From: Treponema sp. | GTDB taxonomy: Bacteria; Spirochaetota; Spirochaetia; Treponematales; Breznakiellaceae | Direction of reading: 5' to 3' | Length of the DNA stretch: 59,037 nt | Assembly (NCBI GenBank): GCA_009781635.1 | Contig: WQXU01000016.1 | Location: 1-59,037 of the forward strand | Part shown: positions 23,374-43,604 of the stretch, piece by piece | Layout: each line of letters starts with the position of its first letter | Position numbering within the stretch: the stretch's first letter is position 1 | The notes under the pieces: model-generated | What the model was told of the DNA's origin: nothing | Database searches by the model: none | Seen by the model: the letters and a program-made list of their open reading frames with translations, nothing else | Position numbers and translations under genes: made by a program

Positions 23374-23415
23374 ATGACAGAATACTCTTCAATTGAAGGT
23401 TTTAAATATGGATAA
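23374..23415 (+). CDS. 13-codon leader ORF overlapping the voltage-sensor gene
   Basis: ATG at 23374 lies seven bases after GGAGGTG, the best ribosome site nearby. It encodes MTEYSSIEGFKYG and stops at TAA 23413-23415, overlapping the ATG (23408) of the next gene by eight bases in another frame. Translation may couple to the downstream gene. Too short for homology; peptide production is inferred only from the ribosome site. Confidence 0.45.
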   Translation: MTEYSSIEGFKYG

Positions 23416-24502
23416 AATCAGACAACGCCTTTATGTAATTCTGGAAAAAGAACCAAAAAGGGAAGATAAGGTAAGCCGTTTTTTCAATCTGTTCCTGCTG
23501 TTTTTTATCTGGATTAATTTAACTGTTGTTATTTTGGGTTTGATATTTGATCTTCATGACAACTTCTTAATCATATATAATTATTTTGAAATATTTTCCA
23601 TAGCGCTTTTTACAATTGAGTTTTTATTAAGAATCTGGATAGATCCCTACAAGCCGCCGTCTCTTGTTTCAAAGAATGTTTTATTATCAAAGCTGCCTCC
23701 GTATCTGTGTTATATTTTTTCTCCTTTGGGGTTAATAGATCTTTTAGCCATTTTGCCGTTTTATCTTCCGCTTATTTTTCCCATCGACCTTCGCATTCTG
23801 CGCGTACTGCGAATGTTCAGGCTTCTTAGAGTTTTAAAACTGAGCCGTTATGATAAAACTGTAAAAATGCTCAGCAAAATTCTGGACAATGTTTTACAGG
23901 GCCTTGCCAATATTATTGAATTCCGCGACAAGGAATCGGGCGAGCATGTTAAAAGAACTCAGTTATATGTAAAGGCATTAATTGATTACCTGATAGATAC
24001 TGAATCCGTATACGCCGGAGAGTTAAGAAAGCTTCAGCCGGATATAATCATAAAATCAATGGCGCTTCATGATGTTGGAAAGATTGCAATTCCGGACAGA
24101 ATTCTTCAGAAGCCTGCCAGGCTCGAACCTGATGAATATGAAATAATGAAAACACATGCTGTACGCGGCAAGGAAATTATAAATGAACTCGGTCACGGCA
24201 ATACATCGATCTATTTGAAACACTGCGAAGACATTTGTTACTGTCATCATGAACGCTGGGACGGCAAGGGCTATCCTCAGCAGTTAAAAGAAGAAGAAAT
24301 TCCACTGACTGCACGCCTTGCAGCATTGGCAGATGTATACGACGCGCTGGTTTGCGTTCGCGCTTATAAACCTTCCATGCCCTACGAAGAAGCAGTAAAA
24401 ATAATCACGGATGGACGCGGCTGTCATTTTGATCCTGTTATTGTCGATGCCTTCCTGGAAATAAAAGAACAATTTATGGAAATTACGCAAAAGTACAGAT
24501 AA
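23408..24502 (+). CDS. voltage-sensor domain fused to an HD-GYP cyclic-di-GMP phosphodiesterase
   Basis: About 364 aa. The N-terminal half has four membrane segments: S1 (about 25-47), S2 (58-77, with Glu71 and Arg75), S3 (102-122, with Asp111) and S4 (129-147). S4 carries Arg at 129, 132, 135, 138, 141, Lys 144 and Arg 147, exactly every third residue, the hallmark of a voltage sensor. There is no S5-pore-S6; the chain passes through a short helix straight into an HD-GYP domain: 'EFRDKESGEHVKRT' (171-184), 'HDVGKIAIPD' with His221-Asp222, and 'HHERWDGKGYP' with GYP 288-290, all intact. Known HD-GYP proteins hydrolyse c-di-GMP; control by membrane potential is inferred. ATG 23408 chosen; a TTG at 23393 is also in frame. 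Confidence 0.85.
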   Translation: MDKIRQRLYVILEKEPKREDKVSRFFNLFLLFFIWINLTVVILGLIFDLHDNFLIIYNYFEIFSIALFTIEFLLRIWIDPYKPPSLVSKNVLLSKLPPYLCYIFSPLGLIDLLAILPFYLPLIFPIDLRILRVLRMFRLLRVLKLSRYDKTVKMLSKILDNVLQGLANIIEFRDKESGEHVKRTQLYVKALIDYLIDTESVYAGELRKLQPDIIIKSMALHDVGKIAIPDRILQKPARLEPDEYEIMKTHAVRGKEIINELGHGNTSIYLKHCEDICYCHHERWDGKGYPQQLKEEEIPLTARLAALADVYDALVCVRAYKPSMPYEEAVKIITDGRGCHFDPVIVDAFLEIKEQFMEITQKYR

Positions 24503-24678: not shown

Positions 24679-27600
24679 ATGAGAGTAAATATTTTTATCT
24701 TTCTGTTAATGATTGCTGCGTTACTTCCCGGCTGCAAGGGAGCAGAGAGGCAAAATCCTGACAATATTTCCGCACTAAACCTTCCAAGGTCATTTAGGGA
24801 ACTTCCCGGCATAACAATTGAAGAAATAAGGGATATCGAAGCGCTTCAAAAACAGAATAGAGTATTTGTTTACGGCATGCCTTCAAGCACTGAAGCATTC
24901 ATGGAAAATGAAATAGCAAGAGGGTTTTCTGCGTTGTTCTGCGAATGGCTTTCTGATTTTTTTGAAATTCCTTTTAAACTGGAACTCTTTGAGTGGTTCG
25001 ATCTTCTTGACGGCCTTGAAACGGGAGCGGTTTCTTTTTCCGGTGAATTAACGCCTACCGAAGAAAGACACAAAATATATCATATGTCTATTCCAATTGC
25101 TTCGCGGTTATTAAAAGCATACCGCATCGACGGAAGCAGATCTCTTGCAGATATAGCGGAAGAACGTTTACTGCGGTTCGGATTTATAGAAGGCACTGCT
25201 ACAATCGATACTGTAGTCTCTGAATTTGAAAGCGGCGCTTTTGATATTGTACTGCTAAATGATATAAGTAATGTTTATGATGCGCTGAAAAGCCGGGAAA
25301 TAGATGTTTTTTATTACAGCGGAACGGCAGAAGCGAATTTTGTTCAATACAATGATTTAATTACACAGCACTTTTATCCATTAACATACCGGCCTGTATC
25401 ATTGGCAACTCAGGATGATGAACTTAAGCCTGTAATTTCGGCAGTTGATAAATTTTTAATCAGCGGCGGTTTTCAATATATCAACAATATATACAATCTT
25501 GGCGAAACAGAATTCAAAAAACACAAACTTCTTTCATGGCTTACAGATGAGGAAAAAGAATATATAAAAGAAAACAAAGAAGTAAAATTTGTCGCCGAAT
25601 ATTATAACTATCCTGTCAGTTTTTTTAATGTGCACGAAAATGAATGGCAGGGAATAATTTTTGATGTGCTGCCTGCAATTGAAGAGCTTACAGGATTAAC
25701 ATTTTTACTAAAAAATGATCAATATACCGAGTGGCCTGATTTACTAAGAATGGTTGAAGAAGGTGAAGTCTCCATGACTGCTGAATTGGTACGTTCAAGG
25801 GATCGTTTAGGGCGATTTTTATGGGCGGCCGTTCCCAGTTTGGCCGACTATTATATACTTATTTCAAAGGCTTCTTTTCCGAATATGAATATTAATGAAG
25901 TAATGGGAGTAAGAATAGGGCTTGTTTGGGGTTCTGTATACGCTGAAATTTTTAACCGCTGGTTTCCGGATCATCAGGCCTCTGTAGAGTATATAAGTTC
26001 AAACGCGGCATTCGAAGGACTGGAGCGCGGCGAAGTTGACATGGTCATGACAAGCCAGAACAGGCTGCTTGCCATCACCCATTATAATGAATTTGTAGGA
26101 TACAAGGCAAATATAATTTTTGATTATGTTTCTGAATCGCGTTTGGGATTTAACATTAATGAAACTATTTTATGTTCCATTATGGATAAAGCGCTGGGCA
26201 TGGTTGATCTAAAATCAATTTCGGCTCAATGGATGAGAAAAACATATGATTACCGCAGCAAGGTGGCACAAGCGCAGCGGCCGTGGTTTATAGGTTCATT
26301 TGTTTTGCTGTTGTTTGTTGTTTCTCTTCTTGTCATTTTATTTTTAAAATACCGCAAGGAAGGAATAAAACTTGAAGGACTTGTACAGGAACGTACTGTT
26401 AAATTGAATAAATACCAGAAGGAACTGGAATCTGCGCTTGAAGCTGCAAAGAATGCCAATAACTCAAAATCGATATTTCTTGCAAACATGAGCCACGAGA
26501 TCCGCACTCCGATGAACAGCATCATGGGATTTTCCGAGCTTGCTCTTGACGGCGAAGCATCGCAGAAGACAAGGGATTATCTGCAGCATATCCGGACAAA
26601 TGCAGAATGGCTGCTTCAGATTATAAATGACATACTTGATATTTCCAAAATAGAATCCGGCAAGATGGAGCTTGAAAGAATTGATTTTGACATGCACGAT
26701 TTATTTACAAGCTGCCGTACATTGATTATGCCAAAGGCTGTTGAAAAAGGCATTTTACTGCATTTTTACGCTGAGCCAAGTATAGGCAGAAGACCGGTGG
26801 GCGATCCTACAAGGCTGCGCCAGATATTTTTAAATCTGCTTTCCAATGCCGTAAAGTTTACAAATGCCGGCCTTATCAAGCTTATTTCTGACATTACCCA
26901 TGTAGACGGCGGTACAATTTCCATACATTTTGAGATTAAAGACAGCGGTATCGGTATGACTCCCGAGCAGATAGAAAAAATATTCGATCCTTTTATGCAG
27001 GCGGAAATCGGCACTACACGCAAGTACGGCGGAACGGGGCTTGGGCTTGCAATCACAAAAAGTATTATAGAAATGATGGGAGGAAAACTTCAGGTAGAGA
27101 GCGTTCCCGGGATTGGAAGCAAATTCAGTTTTGATCTGACATTTGATACCGTAGATGTATCTGATGTAAAAGTATATCAAAGAAAAACAGTGCTTAATGA
27201 AATTGAAAAGCCGGTATTTGACGGAGAAGTACTGTTATGCGAAGATAATGCGATGAATCAGTATGTTATATGCGAGCATCTTTCAAGAGTTGGCCTTAAA
27301 ACTGTAATTGCGGAAAACGGCAGGATTGGCGTTGATATTATTATAGACCGTATGGAAAAAGGCGAAAAACTTTTCGATCTTATTTTTATGGATATGCATA
27401 TGCCTGTAATGGACGGGCTTGAGGCGGCATCAAAAATAATCAAACTTAATACAGATATTCCGATAATTGCAATGACGGCTAACGTCATGGCGGACGACAA
27501 GGAGGTTTACAAAGCAGGCGGAATGGTTGATTGTTTGGGGAAACCGTTCACTTCGCAGGAATTGTGGCAGTGTCTTTTAAAGTATCTGACTCCTGCGGCA

Positions 27601-28182
27601 GCCGGGAAGGAAGTGCAGGATGAGAGACAGAATTTGGATTATGATTTGGAATTTCAAAAATCGCTTGAAGAATATTTTCTAAGAAATAATATGGATATAT
27701 TTAAAGAGATAATAAAAGCAATTGAAGACGGCGATATTAAACTTGCGCACAGGATTGTGCATTCATTAAAGAGTAAATCGGGGCAGATTGGCAAGGCGCA
27801 GCTGCAATATGCCTCTGCAAATGTGGAAAAGCATCTTAAAGACGGCAAAAACCTGGTTCCCCAGGAACTGCTTGCAGCGCTTAAAAAAGAGCTGAGTACG
27901 GTGCTGGCGGAATTGTCTTTGGTATTTGACAAAGAGCCTCAATTAAGAAAGAATCAACAAGAAGAAGACAGTGTAATTGATGCGCAGGCTTCGCGTGCGC
28001 TTTTTGAAAAACTGGAACCAATGCTGAAAATGGGTAATCCGGAATGTTTAAAACTTACAGCCGGCCTGCGTGCGGTTCACGGAGACAAGGAATTGAAAAA
28101 CCAGCTGATACAGCAAATAGATGATTTTGAATTTGAAGCTGCTCTTGCAACGCTTGCTGAATTAAAACCGGAGCTTAATTAA
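24679..28182 (+). CDS. EvgS/BvgS-like hybrid sensor kinase with two solute-binding domains
   Basis: An 1167-aa protein. Signal with lipobox-like 'LLPGC', two tandem family-3 solute-binding domains in the periplasm (about 50-275 and 300-530), one membrane helix (about 537-557), HisKA 'ANMSHEIRTPMN' (His about 606), HATPase ('LLNLLSNAVKFTN', 'KDSGIGM', 'GGTGLGLAIT'), REC ('LLCEDNAMNQ', phospho-Asp about 905 in 'FMDMHMPVMDG') and HPt ('RIVHSLKSKSGQIG', His about 1028), followed by a ~90-residue tail repeated in the next gene. The layout matches BvgS/EvgS venus-flytrap kinases. First of a three-gene unit with a paralogous kinase (three bases downstream) and a GH5 glucanase, suggesting a role in sensing sugars or peptides around fibre. 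No DNA-binding regulator is adjacent. Confidence 0.93.
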   Translation: MRVNIFIFLLMIAALLPGCKGAERQNPDNISALNLPRSFRELPGITIEEIRDIEALQKQNRVFVYGMPSSTEAFMENEIARGFSALFCEWLSDFFEIPFKLELFEWFDLLDGLETGAVSFSGELTPTEERHKIYHMSIPIASRLLKAYRIDGSRSLADIAEERLLRFGFIEGTATIDTVVSEFESGAFDIVLLNDISNVYDALKSREIDVFYYSGTAEANFVQYNDLITQHFYPLTYRPVSLATQDDELKPVISAVDKFLISGGFQYINNIYNLGETEFKKHKLLSWLTDEEKEYIKENKEVKFVAEYYNYPVSFFNVHENEWQGIIFDVLPAIEELTGLTFLLKNDQYTEWPDLLRMVEEGEVSMTAELVRSRDRLGRFLWAAVPSLADYYILISKASFPNMNINEVMGVRIGLVWGSVYAEIFNRWFPDHQASVEYISSNAAFEGLERGEVDMVMTSQNRLLAITHYNEFVGYKANIIFDYVSESRLGFNINETILCSIMDKALGMVDLKSISAQWMRKTYDYRSKVAQAQRPWFIGSFVLLLFVVSLLVILFLKYRKEGIKLEGLVQERTVKLNKYQKELESALEAAKNANNSKSIFLANMSHEIRTPMNSIMGFSELALDGEASQKTRDYLQHIRTNAEWLLQIINDILDISKIESGKMELERIDFDMHDLFTSCRTLIMPKAVEKGILLHFYAEPSIGRRPVGDPTRLRQIFLNLLSNAVKFTNAGLIKLISDITHVDGGTISIHFEIKDSGIGMTPEQIEKIFDPFMQAEIGTTRKYGGTGLGLAITKSIIEMMGGKLQVESVPGIGSKFSFDLTFDTVDVSDVKVYQRKTVLNEIEKPVFDGEVLLCEDNAMNQYVICEHLSRVGLKTVIAENGRIGVDIIIDRMEKGEKLFDLIFMDMHMPVMDGLEAASKIIKLNTDIPIIAMTANVMADDKEVYKAGGMVDCLGKPFTSQELWQCLLKYLTPAAAGKEVQDERQNLDYDLEFQKSLEEYFLRNNMDIFKEIIKAIEDGDIKLAHRIVHSLKSKSGQIGKAQLQYASANVEKHLKDGKNLVPQELLAALKKELSTVLAELSLVFDKEPQLRKNQQEEDSVIDAQASRALFEKLEPMLKMGNPECLKLTAGLRAVHGDKELKNQLIQQIDDFEFEAALATLAELKPELN

Positions 28183-28185
28183 AAT

Positions 28186-31100
28186 ATGATAAAATGGAAC
28201 CTTAACGGAAAAATCATTTTTCCCTCAGTTATAATTCTCTTTCTTCTTGTTGTTATGATAACTGTCTATTCCTCTTTTATTTATAATAGATTCACGACAC
28301 TTCTTAATCAAAGAAATATAAATTTTGTTGAAAGTAATTTAAAAGGCGATCTTGAAAGATACGAACACAATTCAAGAGCGGCGGCAGTTTCTGTGACCCG
28401 TTTTAAGGAAGTTATAGAGGCGGTAAGGGAACGAGACAGGGAAAAAATTATAGAAGTGTTAATTCCAATGGTGGATTTATTCGATATTACCTATTTTACT
28501 GTCGCAGATGAAAATGGATTTACACTTGCAAGAACATACGAACCTTTGCATTACGGTGATCCGATCTTTGGAGTACAGAATATTAAGGATGCCATGAATG
28601 GCATTGTATCTACATATTATGAATCAGGGCCTGTAATAAATATTTCTGTTCATACGGGCGCGCCTGTTTATGATACGGACGGTACTCTGATTGGAGTTAT
28701 TTCGGCAGGTGTCAGGCTTGATGAAAATGAATCTGTCGACAAGCTAAAAGAGCGTTTTAACGCAGAGTTCTCTGTTTTTTTGGGGAGAACAAGAATTGCA
28801 ACAACAATTATAATAGACGGAGAACGCATAACCAGCACTCAGATGGATGAAGATTTTTACAGAAACTTTAATAAGTACGGAACAAATCATTTTGATTCTT
28901 ACAGTTTAATGGGAAGATATTATCATGCATTTCTGCATCCGTTTACTGATGCCAATAATGAAATATTCGCAATGATGATTATCGGCATTTCAAACGAAGA
29001 ACAGATACGTGAAAGAAACCACCTGACAATATATAATGCGCTTGTTGGCCTGTCATGCCTTGTTCTTGCCGTTTTTGCATTGATGAATATTATTACAAAA
29101 ATAACTAAACCTGTAAATAAACTGGTAGAGCTTGTCTCCGGCGTTACGCAGGGGAATTTGAATGTCGATATTGACAGAATACAGTCTGTCGATGATGAAA
29201 TAGGGCTTTTAAGCTATGACATTTATATGCTTATTGATGTAGTTAAATCAATGGTAGATGACCTGTCGCATCTTACAAAAGAGCTTAATGCTTCCGGAGA
29301 CATAAAGTTCCAGATTGATTCAGACAAATACAGCGGATCTTACAAGGAAATAATTGAAGGAATAAATGCCTTATGCAATTCAATTTCCATGAAAAATAAA
29401 ACCATGGCAGTCATGGATTACCTGGATACAATGATATGCGTTACCGATTTTGACTATAACATTCTTTATTTGAATCAAAAGATAATTGATACATACAAGA
29501 TAGACAGAGAAAACATTATAAAGCAAAAATGTTTTAAAGCGATAAGAAATGCGGATAACCCGTGCGAGCATTGCAAGCTGCCGGAGCTTGCAGATAATAA
29601 AGAAACATATGTGTCAACAGAGTATACATACAATTATGATGAATATATCGGAAAGTGGCTTGGAAGAAGATCGGCAGTAATACCCTGGATAGACGGCTCC
29701 AGAGTGTTGTGCAATTATTCCAAGGACGAGTCGAAGGTAATTGATTACGAAGAACAGCTGCGTTCAGCCGTAGACAAGGCGCAGGCGGCATCTATTTCTA
29801 AATCTGTCTTCCTTGCAAATATGAGCCATGAGATACGGACGCCAATGAACAGCATCATGGGTTTTTCCGAGCTTGCAATGGATGATGTTATTCCGGTAAG
29901 GACAAAAGAATATCTGGGAAAAATTCTTGAAAATACAAAAGGACTTTTACAAATTATAAATGACATTCTGGATATATCCAAAGTTGAATCAGGAAAGATG
30001 GAAATAGAAGAAATACCTTTTGATCTTCATGAGCTGCTTGCAAGCTGCAGATCTCTTGTTCTGCCGAAAGCGGTTGAAAAAGGCATTACTCTGTATTTTT
30101 ATGCAGAGCCAAGTATTGGAAAAATACCGTTAAGTGATCCTACAAGGCTGCGTCAGGTGATAGTAAACCTTCTTTCCAATGCAGTAAAATTTACAAATAC
30201 AGGGACAATAAAAGTTCTTGCGGAAATAAAAGAGAAAACAGAAAATGTTGTTACAATGTACTTTGAAGTAAAAGACAGCGGGATCGGCATGACAGATGCT
30301 CAGATTGAAAAAATATTTGATCCTTTTATGCAGGGAGAATCAGGTACGACAAGAAAGTACGGAGGCACAGGACTTGGACTTACAATTACCAAAAGTATTA
30401 TCGAGTTAATGGGCGGGATGCTTTCAGTAGAAAGCTCTCCCGAGACCGGCAGCAGATTTTATTTTACCCTTGCGTTTAAGACAATAGATGCGACAGGCGA
30501 TGATTTGTATAAGCAAAAACTGGCTTATAATGAATATGACAAACCTATTTTTGACGGTGAAGTGCTGTTATGCGAAGATAATGCAATGAACCAGCAGGTT
30601 ATCTGCGAGCATCTTGCGCGGGTGGGGTTAAGAACAGTTGTAGCATGGAACGGTAAAATAGGGCTGGATTTTGTCCGCGAGCGTAAATTAAAAGGAGAAA
30701 AGCAATTCGACTTAATTTTTATGGATATGCATATGCCTGTGATGGACGGCCGCGAAGCATCCTTGAAAATTCTGGAACTTAATTTAAACATCCCGATAAT
30801 CGCAATAACAGCCAATGTCATGTCGGATGACAGAGAGATGTACAAGGAAAACGGACTAAGTGATTGTGTCGGAAAACCTTTTACATCGCAGGAGTTGTGG
30901 AGTTGTCTCTTAAAATACCTTGTCCCCGTAAGTATGGGAGAAAAAAGCGAGAATGATGAGCACAGCATGGAGAAAAACAACTTTTCTGAAAAGGCAGAGA
31001 CCTTTCAAAAATCGCTTCAATCATTATTTGTCAGGAGCAATCAGAATAAATTTAAAGAAATTACAGATGCGCTGGAGAAGGATGATATTAAACATGCTTA

Positions 31101-31554
31101 CAGGCTGGTGCATGGTTTAAAGAGCAATGCCGGCCAGATTGGAAAAACAATTCTGCAAAAAGCGGCCGCAGAGGTTGAGCGCCGTCTTAAAGACGGGGAA
31201 AGAAATGTAACAGAAGATCAATTAAAGATCCTGGAAACGGAATTAAAGATAGTCCTTATTGAACTCTCCCCGCTTATTGGACCGTCTGCAGGTGAGGAAA
31301 TTTCCGGATATAAGCAGAATAGCGGGCAGGAAGAAATAATGGATACAGAATCTGTAGTAAAATTAGTTAATACTCTTGAGGCGCTGCTCAAAACAGGTAA
31401 TCCCGAATGCCTGAAGATGCTCGGCGGTATCCGCTGTCTGCCCGCAGATGAAAATATCAAGATAAAACTAATGCAGCAGATAGAAGATTTTGAATTTGAA
31501 AAGGCACTGTCTGATTTTGCCGTATTAAAAGATGAAATTAATAAAAATATATAA
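28186..31554 (+). CDS. Cache-HAMP-PAS hybrid sensor kinase with REC and HPt domains
   Basis: An 1122-aa protein. Membrane helix (about 10-32), periplasmic Cache domain (about 35-275, 'SAGVRLDENESVDKLKERF'), second helix (about 279-303), HAMP (about 303-355), PAS (about 405-510, with 'CEHCKL'), HisKA 'ANMSHEIRTPMN' (His about 548), HATPase, REC (phospho-Asp about 847) and HPt ('LVHGLKSNAGQIG', His about 976). From HisKA onward it is closely similar to the preceding gene, including the conserved tail ('MLGGIRCLPADENIK'), so the pair arose by duplication with exchange of the sensor half. It starts three bases after the preceding stop and ends 18 bases before the GH5 gene. Confidence 0.93.
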   Translation: MIKWNLNGKIIFPSVIILFLLVVMITVYSSFIYNRFTTLLNQRNINFVESNLKGDLERYEHNSRAAAVSVTRFKEVIEAVRERDREKIIEVLIPMVDLFDITYFTVADENGFTLARTYEPLHYGDPIFGVQNIKDAMNGIVSTYYESGPVINISVHTGAPVYDTDGTLIGVISAGVRLDENESVDKLKERFNAEFSVFLGRTRIATTIIIDGERITSTQMDEDFYRNFNKYGTNHFDSYSLMGRYYHAFLHPFTDANNEIFAMMIIGISNEEQIRERNHLTIYNALVGLSCLVLAVFALMNIITKITKPVNKLVELVSGVTQGNLNVDIDRIQSVDDEIGLLSYDIYMLIDVVKSMVDDLSHLTKELNASGDIKFQIDSDKYSGSYKEIIEGINALCNSISMKNKTMAVMDYLDTMICVTDFDYNILYLNQKIIDTYKIDRENIIKQKCFKAIRNADNPCEHCKLPELADNKETYVSTEYTYNYDEYIGKWLGRRSAVIPWIDGSRVLCNYSKDESKVIDYEEQLRSAVDKAQAASISKSVFLANMSHEIRTPMNSIMGFSELAMDDVIPVRTKEYLGKILENTKGLLQIINDILDISKVESGKMEIEEIPFDLHELLASCRSLVLPKAVEKGITLYFYAEPSIGKIPLSDPTRLRQVIVNLLSNAVKFTNTGTIKVLAEIKEKTENVVTMYFEVKDSGIGMTDAQIEKIFDPFMQGESGTTRKYGGTGLGLTITKSIIELMGGMLSVESSPETGSRFYFTLAFKTIDATGDDLYKQKLAYNEYDKPIFDGEVLLCEDNAMNQQVICEHLARVGLRTVVAWNGKIGLDFVRERKLKGEKQFDLIFMDMHMPVMDGREASLKILELNLNIPIIAITANVMSDDREMYKENGLSDCVGKPFTSQELWSCLLKYLVPVSMGEKSENDEHSMEKNNFSEKAETFQKSLQSLFVRSNQNKFKEITDALEKDDIKHAYRLVHGLKSNAGQIGKTILQKAAAEVERRLKDGERNVTEDQLKILETELKIVLIELSPLIGPSAGEEISGYKQNSGQEEIMDTESVVKLVNTLEALLKTGNPECLKMLGGIRCLPADENIKIKLMQQIEDFEFEKALSDFAVLKDEINKNI

Positions 31555-39090: not shown

Positions 39091-41985
39091 ATGAGCAAAT
39101 TTATTTTCACAGTTGAGACAGAGGCATTCGAGGGCGTAAAAAGAACCGCAAGAAAAGTAGCTGCAGATTTTGAGAAAGTCAGCGGTACGCTTCCCTGTAT
39201 TGGAGAAAAGCTTCCGGCGGATACAAATAGCGGGGACAGTATTATTTTTGCAACACTGGGTAAAAGTCCGCTTGTTGACATGTTTATAAAAGAGGGAAAA
39301 TTCGATCCGTCCGCTATCCGCGGCAAGAGGGAAGTTTATCAGATAAAATTTATAAATGTTTCCGGAAACAATTTAAAAACATTGCTTATATGCGGAAGCG
39401 ATAAACGCGGAACAATTTACGGCATGTTTGCATTGTCTGAATATATCGGTGTTTCTCCCCTGCATTTCTGGGGCGATGTTGAGCCTGATAAAAACGAAAA
39501 TATTGAAATTACAGATAAAATTGAAACAATTTCCAAAGAGCCAAGCGTAAAATACCGCGGATTATTTATTAATGATGAATGGCCGTGTTTTGGAAGCTGG
39601 ACATTTTTGCATTTTGGCGGTTTCACAGCCGAGATGTACGATCATGTTTTTGAACTTTTGCTGCGTCTTAAAGGCAACTATCTTTGGCCTGCAATGTGGT
39701 CATCCTCGTTTGCTCTGGACGGTCCCGGAAAGCGCAGTGAGGAACTTGCAGATATCTACGGGATAGTTGTCGGCGCTTCTCATCATGAGCCATGCCTGCG
39801 CGCCAGCGAAGAATGGGATAGGGTCAGAGGAGTAAAATCCGTATACGGCAATGACTGGAATTATGAAAAAAACAAAAACGGCCTTTTAAAATATTGGGAA
39901 GACGGTTTAAGAAGAAGCGGCAAGTATGAGAAAATTATTATCATAGGCATGCGCGGAGAACGTGACAGTTCCATGCTGGATTACAACTCATCGCTTAAAG
40001 AAAATATTGACATATTAAAAGATATAATTAAAAACCAGCGCGATCTTATAAGAAAAAATGTTAATCCGGATATTGATTCTGTTCCTCAAATGCTGGCTTT
40101 CTATAAGGAAGTGGAAGAATATTACTACGGCAACGAACAGGTTGAAGGTTTAAAAGACTGGGATGAGCTTAACGGCGTTATATACATGCTTTGCGAAGAT
40201 AATTTCGGATTTGTCCGCACGCTGCCGGTGAAAGAAATCCGTGAGCGCAAGGGCGGTTTCGGCATGTATTATCATTTGGATTACCACGGAGGACCTGTTT
40301 CCTATGAGTGGATGCCCTCCACATCTTTTGAAAGAATATGGGATCAAATGAGCATGGCTTACGATTACGGAGCCAGAGAAGTATGGGTTATTAATGTCGG
40401 CGATCTGAAATTCAATGAAGTACCCTTTGCGTATTTTATGGAGCTTGCCTATGACTTTGAAAAATGGGGGACAAATTCAGCTAACAGCATTGATGAATAC
40501 ACTGAAATGTGGCTGAAAAAAACATTCCCGTCCGTTGATGAAGCAGTCCGTAAAAAGATGTCGCTCGTTCTTCACGGATATATCAGAATGAATGCAATGC
40601 GCCGGCCCGAAACACAGAATGCCGGTACCTATCATCCGTGCAATTATTTAGAGACGGACAGGATGCTTTCTCTTGCTGACAGCATTGATGCGTTAAATGA
40701 AGAAGTCCATTCAGAGCTTTCAAAAAATACAGAAAATGTAAAAACAGCTTATTATATATTAATATATTATCCGGCGAAGGCGAGCGTTAATTTGCTTAGG
40801 ATGAATTTGCTGGCAGGAAAAAACAGGCATTATGCATATCAGGGAAAAAAAGCCGCCAATGATTATGCGGCGCTTGTTACAGAATGTATTGAAAAAGACC
40901 GCGCATTATCCGAAGAACTGGCATTATTCAGAAACGGCAAATGGAAGGGCATGGAACTTGAACAGCATATTGGTTTTGTAAAATGGAACGAGGATAACTG
41001 CAGGTATCCGCTGCGTATTCAGGTTGAACCTGCGTACAAACCCCGTATGATTTTATCACGAAAAGACAACGAAAGAATTTATGCCAAAAATTACGGGAAC
41101 CCGGAAAAAATAAAAGTTGATGATTTTCTTTATGCAGGAAATGACATTGTTATTATAGAAATTGCCAATGATGGAATTGGCAGCATTGATTATGTTATCC
41201 AGACAGACAAAGAGTGCGAATGGCTTGAAATTGACATTGCTTCAAACAACGGCAAAGGTGTTTTAAAAGGAACTGTAGAGTCTCAGGATGATATTATACT
41301 TCGCTGTAACAGGCAAAAGCTTGCATGTAAGTCTCCTTCTGGAGAGATTCAAACAACACAGATATTTGTAAAAGACAACGAAACAACTGTAGCAATCGAA
41401 GTAAAAGCAAAAACCATTAATACGGAAAATCTGCTTCCTATGACATTTTTGAATAACAAGGGTGTAATAACCATGGAAGCAAATCACTTTTGCAATAAAA
41501 AAGATGCAGGTGGCAGCGGTTTTATTGAACTTAAAAATTACGGCAGAAGCGGCTGCGGCATGAAGGTTTTTCCAACCACCGTTAATTTCAGCGATGATGA
41601 AGAAAAGCCCGTTCTTACATACCGGTTTTTAATAGAAGAAACCGGTGAACATATTGTTGAGGTATGGACAACGCCGGTAAACTCTGTGCAGCAAAACAGT
41701 CCGCTGCGGTTTTTACTTTATAGTTCACAGGACAAGCAGATTATCACTTCTGTATCCAGCGACTTCAAAGCAGGAAGCCCGCAGGACAGAGAGTGGAGCA
41801 AGGGCGTACTTGATAATATACGTGTTAACAAAACATCTTTTACATTTGAAAAAGGCATTCGTGAAATTTCCGTTGGCGCGCTTGAAGCCGGGCTTGTGCT
41901 TGAAAGAATCCTTATTTACAAAAAAGGCATAGAGCCTTTAATGTCATATCTTGGACCGCCTGAGAGTTTCTTCGTAAAACCTTAA
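39091..41985 (+). CDS. GH115 xylan alpha-glucuronidase-like enzyme
   Basis: A 964-aa protein of the GH115 type, enzymes that remove (4-O-methyl-)glucuronic acid from xylan. Family blocks: 'IIFATLGKSPLVDMFI' (about 50), 'ICGSDKRGTIYGMFALSEYI' (about 100), 'FINDEWPCFGSW' (about 155), 'LKGNYLWPAMWSSSFALDG' (about 192), 'GVVVGASHHEPCLRASEEW'-like block (about 225), 'IIIGMRGERDSSM' (about 290), 'YYHLDYHGGPVSYEWMPS' (about 390) and a beta-rich C-terminal domain ending 'EAGLVLERILIYKKG'. No signal peptide is visible, so the enzyme probably acts inside the cell on imported aldouronic acids, which is an inference. No strong ribosome site precedes ATG 39091. It overlaps the convergent GGDEF gene by four bases. 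Confidence 0.9.
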   Translation: MSKFIFTVETEAFEGVKRTARKVAADFEKVSGTLPCIGEKLPADTNSGDSIIFATLGKSPLVDMFIKEGKFDPSAIRGKREVYQIKFINVSGNNLKTLLICGSDKRGTIYGMFALSEYIGVSPLHFWGDVEPDKNENIEITDKIETISKEPSVKYRGLFINDEWPCFGSWTFLHFGGFTAEMYDHVFELLLRLKGNYLWPAMWSSSFALDGPGKRSEELADIYGIVVGASHHEPCLRASEEWDRVRGVKSVYGNDWNYEKNKNGLLKYWEDGLRRSGKYEKIIIIGMRGERDSSMLDYNSSLKENIDILKDIIKNQRDLIRKNVNPDIDSVPQMLAFYKEVEEYYYGNEQVEGLKDWDELNGVIYMLCEDNFGFVRTLPVKEIRERKGGFGMYYHLDYHGGPVSYEWMPSTSFERIWDQMSMAYDYGAREVWVINVGDLKFNEVPFAYFMELAYDFEKWGTNSANSIDEYTEMWLKKTFPSVDEAVRKKMSLVLHGYIRMNAMRRPETQNAGTYHPCNYLETDRMLSLADSIDALNEEVHSELSKNTENVKTAYYILIYYPAKASVNLLRMNLLAGKNRHYAYQGKKAANDYAALVTECIEKDRALSEELALFRNGKWKGMELEQHIGFVKWNEDNCRYPLRIQVEPAYKPRMILSRKDNERIYAKNYGNPEKIKVDDFLYAGNDIVIIEIANDGIGSIDYVIQTDKECEWLEIDIASNNGKGVLKGTVESQDDIILRCNRQKLACKSPSGEIQTTQIFVKDNETTVAIEVKAKTINTENLLPMTFLNNKGVITMEANHFCNKKDAGGSGFIELKNYGRSGCGMKVFPTTVNFSDDEEKPVLTYRFLIEETGEHIVEVWTTPVNSVQQNSPLRFLLYSSQDKQIITSVSSDFKAGSPQDREWSKGVLDNIRVNKTSFTFEKGIREISVGALEAGLVLERILIYKKGIEPLMSYLGPPESFFVKP

Positions 41986-43604
41986 CACGGATCAAAACAT
42001 TCAAACGTATACTGGTTGCGTCCGTTATTTTTGGATTTATATAATGCAGCATCGGCGCGTTTAACATAATCGCTTTCTTCGTGCGAATGTTTTACAATGC
42101 CCGTTGTTCCGCCTATGGAAACAGTTACATATTTTGCAGTGTCGCTGTTTTCATGGGGTATATTGCATTCGCTGATACTGTTAAGTAATTTTTCTGCAAT
42201 TAAAAGCGCGCCGTTTTCATCAGTATTCGGCAACACAACAACAAATTCTTCTCCGCCGTACCTTGCGGCAAAATCATCGTCTCTTGTTATATTTCTGGAA
42301 ATAATTGCCGCAACTTTTCTGAGGCAGTTATCGCCCATATCATGCCCGTATGTGTCGTTGAATTTTTTAAAGAAATCAATGTCCAGCATAAGCAGGCTGA
42401 GTTTTCCGCCTGTACGGGACAGAGACTTGATAATTTTTTTCATGCTCCCGTCAAAAAACCGCCTGTTGTAGAGTCCTGTTAGCTGATCTATTACTGTCAT
42501 ATTAAGGAATTTCCCCAATGTTTCAATTTCGTTTTTGTTTTTGGCTTCGTTATACCATTTCAAGTCCCAATCAGATGAAATTTGACCAATTGATTTTATT
42601 ATCTGATTTAAAGGTTCCAGTAATTTTGCTACAAAAATATTAAAAATAGTAAAGACGGATAAAATAACAATTATCATCACGCCGAAAAGGATTGTCATTC
42701 TGGTGTTAAGGGCTTCCCCTATGTAAAACGAATGAACTGCGGTTACATACCAGTCTAAAGCGCTGATTGTGCCAAGAACGGCTATACCTTTTTCATCTAT
42801 TGTATCGAAATATATAATCTCCTCATCTTTTAATTTTAAACTTTGAGAAAAGATTTCTTCTCCGATAAGGCCGTGTCTGTCTTTTATATTAACCTTGTTT
42901 TTCACAAGATTAATGTCACGCGCTCCTGTAATCTCGCCGGCAAGATTAAAAAAATACAGTTGAGCGTTTCCCGTATAGTGAATGTATATGTCGTTAATGA
43001 AATCTGATAAATTTATACCGGTTCCGACAATACCGACAGGAATATTTTCAATATTGAATACCGGAGCGTTAATCCAGAGATTTGTTACGTTAAGATCGGG
43101 ATTATAATTTATATTTAAATTATACAAGTCTGTTTCATAGAGAGTCATGTTATACCAGTAATTTTCAGGGCTGTCAGGATCAATTGTGTACTGCTCATGG
43201 AGAGTTGAGTAAAATATGTTATCCTTGTCATTAACCCAGAAAATTGATTTTCCCACCAATGCGCGGCAGTATGAATTTAATTCGTCAAAAGCCAGATCTT
43301 TCAGTTCAGAATCGTAGGGATTGTCAAAATATTTTACTATTATCGGCGAGTCAGCCATTTTAAGAACAATGGCAATTTCCGCATTAACAGATGCTTCCAG
43401 TCTGAGACGTTCAAGCTCTACGGTTTTCATAAGTTCATACCCGGAATTCTGGTGAAGAATCTGTTCCATTAAAATAACGAAAGCAATGCTGCTTACAGTA
43501 AAAATAAGCAGAAAAAGGATGCAGGAGAAAACAATAAAACTTCTTTTCATGGAAGTTTGGCGTTTCTGTGAAACTGGTATTGTAAAAATATTTTTCAATG
43601 CCAT
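41982..43604 (-). CDS. Cache-domain diguanylate cyclase
   Basis: A 540-aa membrane protein making c-di-GMP. Membrane helix (about 20-45), periplasmic dCache-like region (about 50-300), second helix (about 305-330, 'ILFGVMIIVILSVFTIFNIF'), linker and GGDEF domain (about 370-535). The active site is 'RYGGEEFVVVLP'; five residues upstream lies 'RDDD', a proper RxxD inhibitory site, so product feedback is expected. 'DIDFFKKFNDTYGHDMGD' is also intact. The ligand of the Cache domain is unknown. It is the natural counterpart of the HD-GYP enzyme at 23.4 kb, though not linked to it. Confidence 0.92.
   Translation of the reverse strand: MALKNIFTIPVSQKRQTSMKRSFIVFSCILFLLIFTVSSIAFVILMEQILHQNSGYELMKTVELERLRLEASVNAEIAIVLKMADSPIIVKYFDNPYDSELKDLAFDELNSYCRALVGKSIFWVNDKDNIFYSTLHEQYTIDPDSPENYWYNMTLYETDLYNLNINYNPDLNVTNLWINAPVFNIENIPVGIVGTGINLSDFINDIYIHYTGNAQLYFFNLAGEITGARDINLVKNKVNIKDRHGLIGEEIFSQSLKLKDEEIIYFDTIDEKGIAVLGTISALDWYVTAVHSFYIGEALNTRMTILFGVMIIVILSVFTIFNIFVAKLLEPLNQIIKSIGQISSDWDLKWYNEAKNKNEIETLGKFLNMTVIDQLTGLYNRRFFDGSMKKIIKSLSRTGGKLSLLMLDIDFFKKFNDTYGHDMGDNCLRKVAAIISRNITRDDDFAARYGGEEFVVVLPNTDENGALLIAEKLLNSISECNIPHENSDTAKYVTVSIGGTTGIVKHSHEESDYVKRADAALYKSKNNGRNQYTFECFDPC

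Follow-up and report, generated by a model that had tools for sequence, protein, structure and literature searches.

The window analyzed here, a stretch of 59,037 nucleotides from a Treponema genome (contig C16; assembly of 2.77 Mb in 51 contigs, 99% complete), carries on its forward strand an open reading frame (23408-24502, start ATG at 23408, stop codon at 24500-24502) for a protein of 364 amino acids, in which a voltage sensor domain (VSD) is fused to an HD-GYP phosphodiesterase domain. The gene and its parts are as follows:

23395..23399, +, GAAGG, resembling a ribosome-binding site, 8 nt 5' of the ATG (read from the sequence)
23408..24502, +, VSD-HD-GYP fusion gene, 364 amino acids plus stop
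23468..23545, +, S1 helix, amino acids 21-46 (AlphaFold2 model)
23561..23641, +, S2 helix, amino acids 52-78, with E61-x6-F68-x2-E71-x3-R75 (Kv charge-transfer pattern)
23699..23776, +, S3, amino acids 98-123, with D111
23789..23848, +, S4, amino acids 128-147, with R129, R132, R135, R138, R141, K144, and R147
23849..23887, +, junction helix, amino acids 148-160, extending S4 into the enzyme; the S4-S5 linker begins here in Kv relatives
23888..24499, +, HD-GYP phosphodiesterase domain, amino acids 161-364
23927..23947, +, D174-K-E176-S-G-E-H180, counterparts of PmGH D183, E185, and H189
24068..24082, +, H221-D222-V-G-K225, HD motif and catalytic Lys
24155..24157, +, H250, metal ligand
24245..24277, +, H280-H281-E-R-W-D-G-K-G288-Y289-P290, HHExxDGxGYP motif
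24332..24343, +, D309 (metal ligand) to D312, counterparts of PmGH D305 and D308

Promoter and terminator scans of the region gave predictions at chance level only, and Rfam gave no match. In Pfam, the first half of the protein matches Ion_trans above the cut-off (amino acids 24-169, E = 1.3e-14), but only over profile positions 2-132 of 241, the S1-S4 half; the C-terminal domain matches HD_5 (amino acids 217-344, E = 1.6e-28), and neither a Response_reg receiver domain nor a PTEN-type family was matched. The S5-P-S6 unit with its TxGYG filter is absent by sequence, Pfam, and AlphaFold2, S4 leading straight into HD-GYP. The sequence-only reading had described S1-S4 joined to HD-GYP without pore helices, Arg or Lys at every third residue of S4 from 129 to 147, Glu in S2 and Asp in S3, and a full set of HD-GYP catalytic residues. 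The partial Ion_trans match followed by HD_5 bears out the first of these, and the seven S4 charges, residues E61, E71, and D111, and eight metal ligands with the GYP motif agree with the others.

A scan of GTDB genomes recovered three further full-length fusions (L001, 78% identity; L002, 70%; L003, 70%), and its remaining matches are HD-GYP proteins with other N termini. The distribution is narrow, comprising four species of one genus (4 of 40 genomes), and five further genomes of the genus encode Kv channels whose VSD is of the same kind. Searches with a VSD profile found no fusions beyond those four among the loci read from 200 genomes of the family, and the fusion in the window was the sole HD-GYP fusion among the loci read from 393 Spirochaetota genomes, where the other loci were mostly pore channels, some with RCK or cyclic-nucleotide domains. 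Its own genome contains no other Ion_trans gene. The close relatives are Treponema metagenome-assembled genomes (MAGs), whose isolate names (such as Co191, Emb289, and Nt197) suggest an origin in termite guts. An Ion_trans search of 398 genomes of the Neptunomonas phylum says little on VSD-only proteins because only the best-scoring matches were listed, nearly all of them combining VSD and pore.

The genes flanking the fusion are unrelated in the four species, with no operon conserved across them, and the shared unit under selection is therefore the gene itself. Both parent gene types occur in the genus and the assembly is in 51 contigs, so that an artificial joining of a Kv gene to a REC-HD-GYP gene, or the loss of a pore through an assembly error, had to be considered. 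The survey of spirochaete genomes proposed with the sequence-only reading answers this point: the same junction is present in three other Treponema MAGs at 70 to 78% identity and with different flanks. Four independent copies in 40 genomes therefore refute an assembly or binning artifact, whose probability is negligible. Carriage by mobile elements is likewise unsupported, since none of the plasmid records covers 80% of the protein (the best matches are to the HD-GYP part only) and a scan of IMG/VR with the VSD alignment confirmed nothing.

Downstream of the fusion on the same strand, the window contains two tandem genes for hybrid histidine kinases with HisKA, HATPase, REC, and Hpt domains (24679-28182 and 28186-31554), whose inputs are a solute-binding protein and a cache domain, respectively; they are not conserved beside the fusion in the other species. 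A gene for a GGDEF diguanylate cyclase lies on the opposite strand (41982-43604).

Arg or Lys occupies exactly every third position of S4 (129, 132, 135, 138, 141, 144, and 147). Together with E61, F68, E71, R75, and D111, these charges correspond to the gating charges and charge-transfer center of Kv channels. Their counterparts in Kv1.2 we take to be E226, F233, E236, R240, D259, and R294-R309, with R129 as one extra. None of the 12 residues varies among the four fusions, whereas 68 of the 160 columns of the VSD region are invariant (hypergeometric P = 1.9e-5), and almost all the spirochaete Kv channels compared have identical letters at these positions. Searches of PDB sequences with phmmer match the first half of the protein to Kv4.2, Kv1.2-Kv2.1, and Nav1.7. 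By all sequence criteria, the sensor half is a Kv-type VSD.

The structure models agree with this assignment. AlphaFold2 predicts four membrane-length helices (21-46, 52-78, 98-123, and from 128), the last a single helix of residues 128-171 that enters the HD-GYP domain, with no further hydrophobic helix pair after S4; the absence of S5-S6 is thereby confirmed. Confidence in the VSD is moderate (pLDDT about 50-68) because only four sequences inform this part of the alignment. With VIA-align, residues 16-148 superpose on Kv4.2 with a Z score of 10.1 (2.9 Å over 115 residues) and fit the voltage sensors of Kv4.2, Nav1.7, SLC9C1, and KCNQ1 with Z scores of 9.7-10.3. A Z score near 10 alone could reflect a common helical arrangement, but the sequence matches and Foldseek concur on a voltage sensor: for a model of the VSD alone, itself poor (pLDDT 57.5), all 50 matches listed are voltage-gated channels. 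A nontransmembrane S4 would have spoken against a voltage sensor; in the model, S4 is predicted to span the membrane, packed as in solved voltage sensors.

The four helices might be a mere membrane anchor, tethering a constitutively active phosphodiesterase to the inner membrane. Activity in the absence of an input is possible for HD-GYP enzymes, and the VSD evolves faster than the HD-GYP domain (dN of 0.18-0.31 versus 0.12-0.17). Purifying selection acts on both halves, with dN/dS, where dS was computable, of about 0.11-0.17 for the VSD and 0.07-0.12 for HD-GYP, values that are rough because dS is near saturation. In an anchor the gating residues would be expected to decay, yet they are kept, whereas the remaining charged positions of the VSD region are invariant in just 14 of 25 cases; an anchor is thus very unlikely. 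The domain could instead be a membrane receptor that relays to HD-GYP a signal from lipid, pH, mechanical stretch, or a partner protein. Some VSDs are modulated by lipids, and the linker stands in for the site at which a receiver domain would feed in its signal. However, a domain sensing lipid or pH alone would not need every S4 charge and its partners in S2 and S3, and these are invariant although the fusions diverge at as many as 39% of VSD positions, making a nonvoltage input unlikely.

Proton conduction, with HD-GYP sensing local pH or regulating a proton leak, is suggested by the resemblance to Hv1, which is likewise a pore-less VSD according to a 2024 review (PMC13095418). In Hv1, too, a cytosolic helix extends S4, but an enzyme domain is lacking. 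No Asp corresponding to the Hv1 selectivity residue D112 was seen in the membrane span of S1 (residues 21-46) of the fusion when the two were matched by eye, and this S1 has N37, which is common in Kv relatives. Proton conduction is highly improbable, and a Kv-type voltage sensor remains the preferred reading of the domain.

In the enzyme half, alignment places D174, E176, H180, H221, D222, and K225 at PmGH D183, E185, H189, H221, D222, and K225, and H250, H280, H281, D309, and D312 at PmGH H250, H276, H277, D305, and D308, the roles of the PmGH residues being those described previously (PMC4159591). All eight PmGH metal ligands, as well as D183, K225, and D308, have counterparts, and neither the ligands nor the GYP motif vary among the four fusions. 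A degenerate enzyme was ruled out because all ligands are kept. The second half of the protein matches PA4781 (4r8z) and PmGH (4mcw) in phmmer searches of PDB sequences, and its model, for which confidence is high over most of the domain (pLDDT about 90-98), superposes on the HD-GYP domain of PA4781 with a Z score of 28.8 (residues 151-364; 2.2 Å over 210 residues; VIA-align) and on PmGH with one of 25.2. Sequence and fold make this half a member of the HD-GYP family, and its substrate would be c-di-GMP.

PA4781, the closest solved relative, may itself prefer a substrate other than c-di-GMP, and V-cGAP3 is also among the closest solved HD-GYP chains. The domain could thus act on pGpG or 3'3'-cGAMP or serve as a protein interaction module, in which case voltage control may still apply. 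Against this, the domain has every ligand of the trinuclear subfamily, its E176-S-G is similar to the E/D-T-G signature of those enzymes, and the genome encodes many GGDEF proteins; a different substrate or role is quite unlikely. The genome has 12 or more GGDEF genes and five PilZ matches, so that a c-di-GMP network on which the enzyme could act is probably in use.

Each half of the fusion has an identifiable source. In the HD-GYP tree, the four fusions form one clade (support 97/96) nested in the REC-HD-GYP group of these Treponema (100/99), and a paralogue in the same genome (L055) has an N-terminal receiver domain and an HD-GYP domain 75% identical to that of the fusion. In the VSD tree, too, the four are a single clade (100/96), placed among the Kv channels of spirochaetes; the closest by identity (L067, 52%) is from the same genus and has a TLTTIGYGD filter. 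The pore-bearing relatives of the VSD are separate Kv genes in other species. The four fusions share a common ancestor, and because the source of each half can be named, a phosphoreceiver appears to have been swapped for a voltage sensor. The simplest account of these trees is a single event, apparently occurring once, in which the receiver of a response regulator phosphodiesterase was replaced by Kv S1-S4, with the junction roughly where the S4-S5 linker would begin. In one of the other species, a REC-HD-GYP gene (L003:8024-9079, reverse strand) whose HD-GYP domain is 74% identical is separated from the fusion gene by 2.4 kb within one contig, so that parent type and fusion are near each other.

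The fusion protein is probably a voltage-gated c-di-GMP phosphodiesterase bound to the membrane. Its Kv-type VSD would reside in the inner membrane with both ends of the protein cytosolic, and a change in membrane potential would move the seven-charge S4 through the charge-transfer center of S1-S3. Since S4 is continuous with the entry helix of HD-GYP, through which the receiver signals in REC-HD-GYP proteins, this movement would shift the first HD-GYP helix and alter the active site or the dimer. Hydrolysis of c-di-GMP would then be gated by membrane potential and, by analogy with Ci-VSP and Kv channels, depolarization may be the activating condition, lowering c-di-GMP. The sequence-only reading of the protein is supported as a whole, with voltage control itself predicted from its parts.

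VSDs are known to drive channel pores, proton conduction, an animal Na+/H+ exchanger, and phosphoinositide phosphatases; the 2024 review lists channels, the sperm Na+/H+ exchanger, voltage-sensing phosphatases (VSPs), and Hv1 as VSD proteins (PMC13095418). VSPs (Ci-VSP and the TPTE family) resemble the fusion in having one pore-less VSD joined through S4 to a cytosolic phosphohydrolase, but their enzyme is PTEN-like, whereas that of the fusion is a bacterial, metal-dependent HD-GYP domain for cyclic dinucleotides, and there is no evidence of common descent of the two fusions. The VSP architecture attributed to the protein in the sequence-only reading therefore stands as an analogy and falls as a homology: the protein may work like a VSP but is not a member of that family because it has no PTEN-like domain. 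SLC9C1, the sperm Na+/H+ exchanger, similarly uses a VSD to drive a nonchannel protein (model fit Z = 10.3), but is an animal protein in which the VSD acts on a transporter that also has a cyclic-nucleotide domain. Spirochaete Kv channels such as L067 have nearly the same gating residues and are the probable type of VSD source, but they possess S5, a TIGYGD filter, and S6. REC-HD-GYP regulators (L055, PA4781, and the RpfG type) share the catalytic residues and the entry helix, but they take their input through a phosphoreceiver, and so from a histidine kinase, instead of through a transmembrane voltage sensor. A literature search, outside which most subscription papers and preprints fell, found no report of a VSD with HD-GYP, c-di-GMP turnover, or HAMP. 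VSD-coupled enzymes are thus already known, and the fusion is the first found with a bacterial second-messenger enzyme as output.

A second protein combining VSD and HD-GYP was reached through an Ion_trans search of 218 Spirochaetota genomes. It has 604 amino acids (L187:1089-2900, reverse strand; G273:C715), belongs to another Spirochaetota family, and contains Ion_trans S1-S4 at residues 52-201 and HD_5 at residues 411-563. Like the Treponema fusion, it holds both domains in one chain without a K+ filter motif. Unlike the fusion, it has two hydrophobic helices around a loop and then a weak HAMP match inserted between the domains, as well as a different HD-GYP domain, and was seen in a single genome, whose assembly has about 730 contigs and 6% contamination; no second copy was found in 364 genomes or in its order. 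The two proteins are not homologous as wholes and were separately built.

Other VSD proteins were also observed. L154:806-2896 (reverse strand), L153:920-1999 (reverse strand), L188:1827-2792, L189:1614-3164, L190:2211-3698, and L191:27-1163 all have an Ion_trans S1-S4 match that leads into a TM-loop-TM unit, with no recognized pore. These six come from spirochaetes and one MAG labeled "Ca. Dependentiae" and possibly represent an undescribed class of VSD receptors. Taken together with the 604-residue protein, they suggest that VSDs were used as receptor inputs more than once in Spirochaetota. Among Kv-like channels, four (L069, L070, L082, and L085) have the filter TVWYGD, TIWYGD, or TIWLGD instead of TxGYGD, and three from one spirochaete family (L106, L107, and L108) combine an AWLGD filter with a shortened S4 bearing fewer charges; K+ selectivity and gating are probably altered in these three.

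It is moderately likely that spirochaetes contain bacterial voltage-gated second-messenger enzymes, built at least twice (counting the 604-residue protein) amid a wider undescribed set of pore-less VSD receptors. If so, a single protein would link the bioelectric state of the cell, by means of the voltage sensor of a K+ channel, to c-di-GMP breakdown and thus to the switch between motility and attachment, so that membrane potential would reach the main lifestyle switch of bacteria by a direct molecular path. The fusion would also be of use as a tool, being a natural phosphodiesterase under voltage control in a single chain, and would make testable how bacteria read their own membrane potential.
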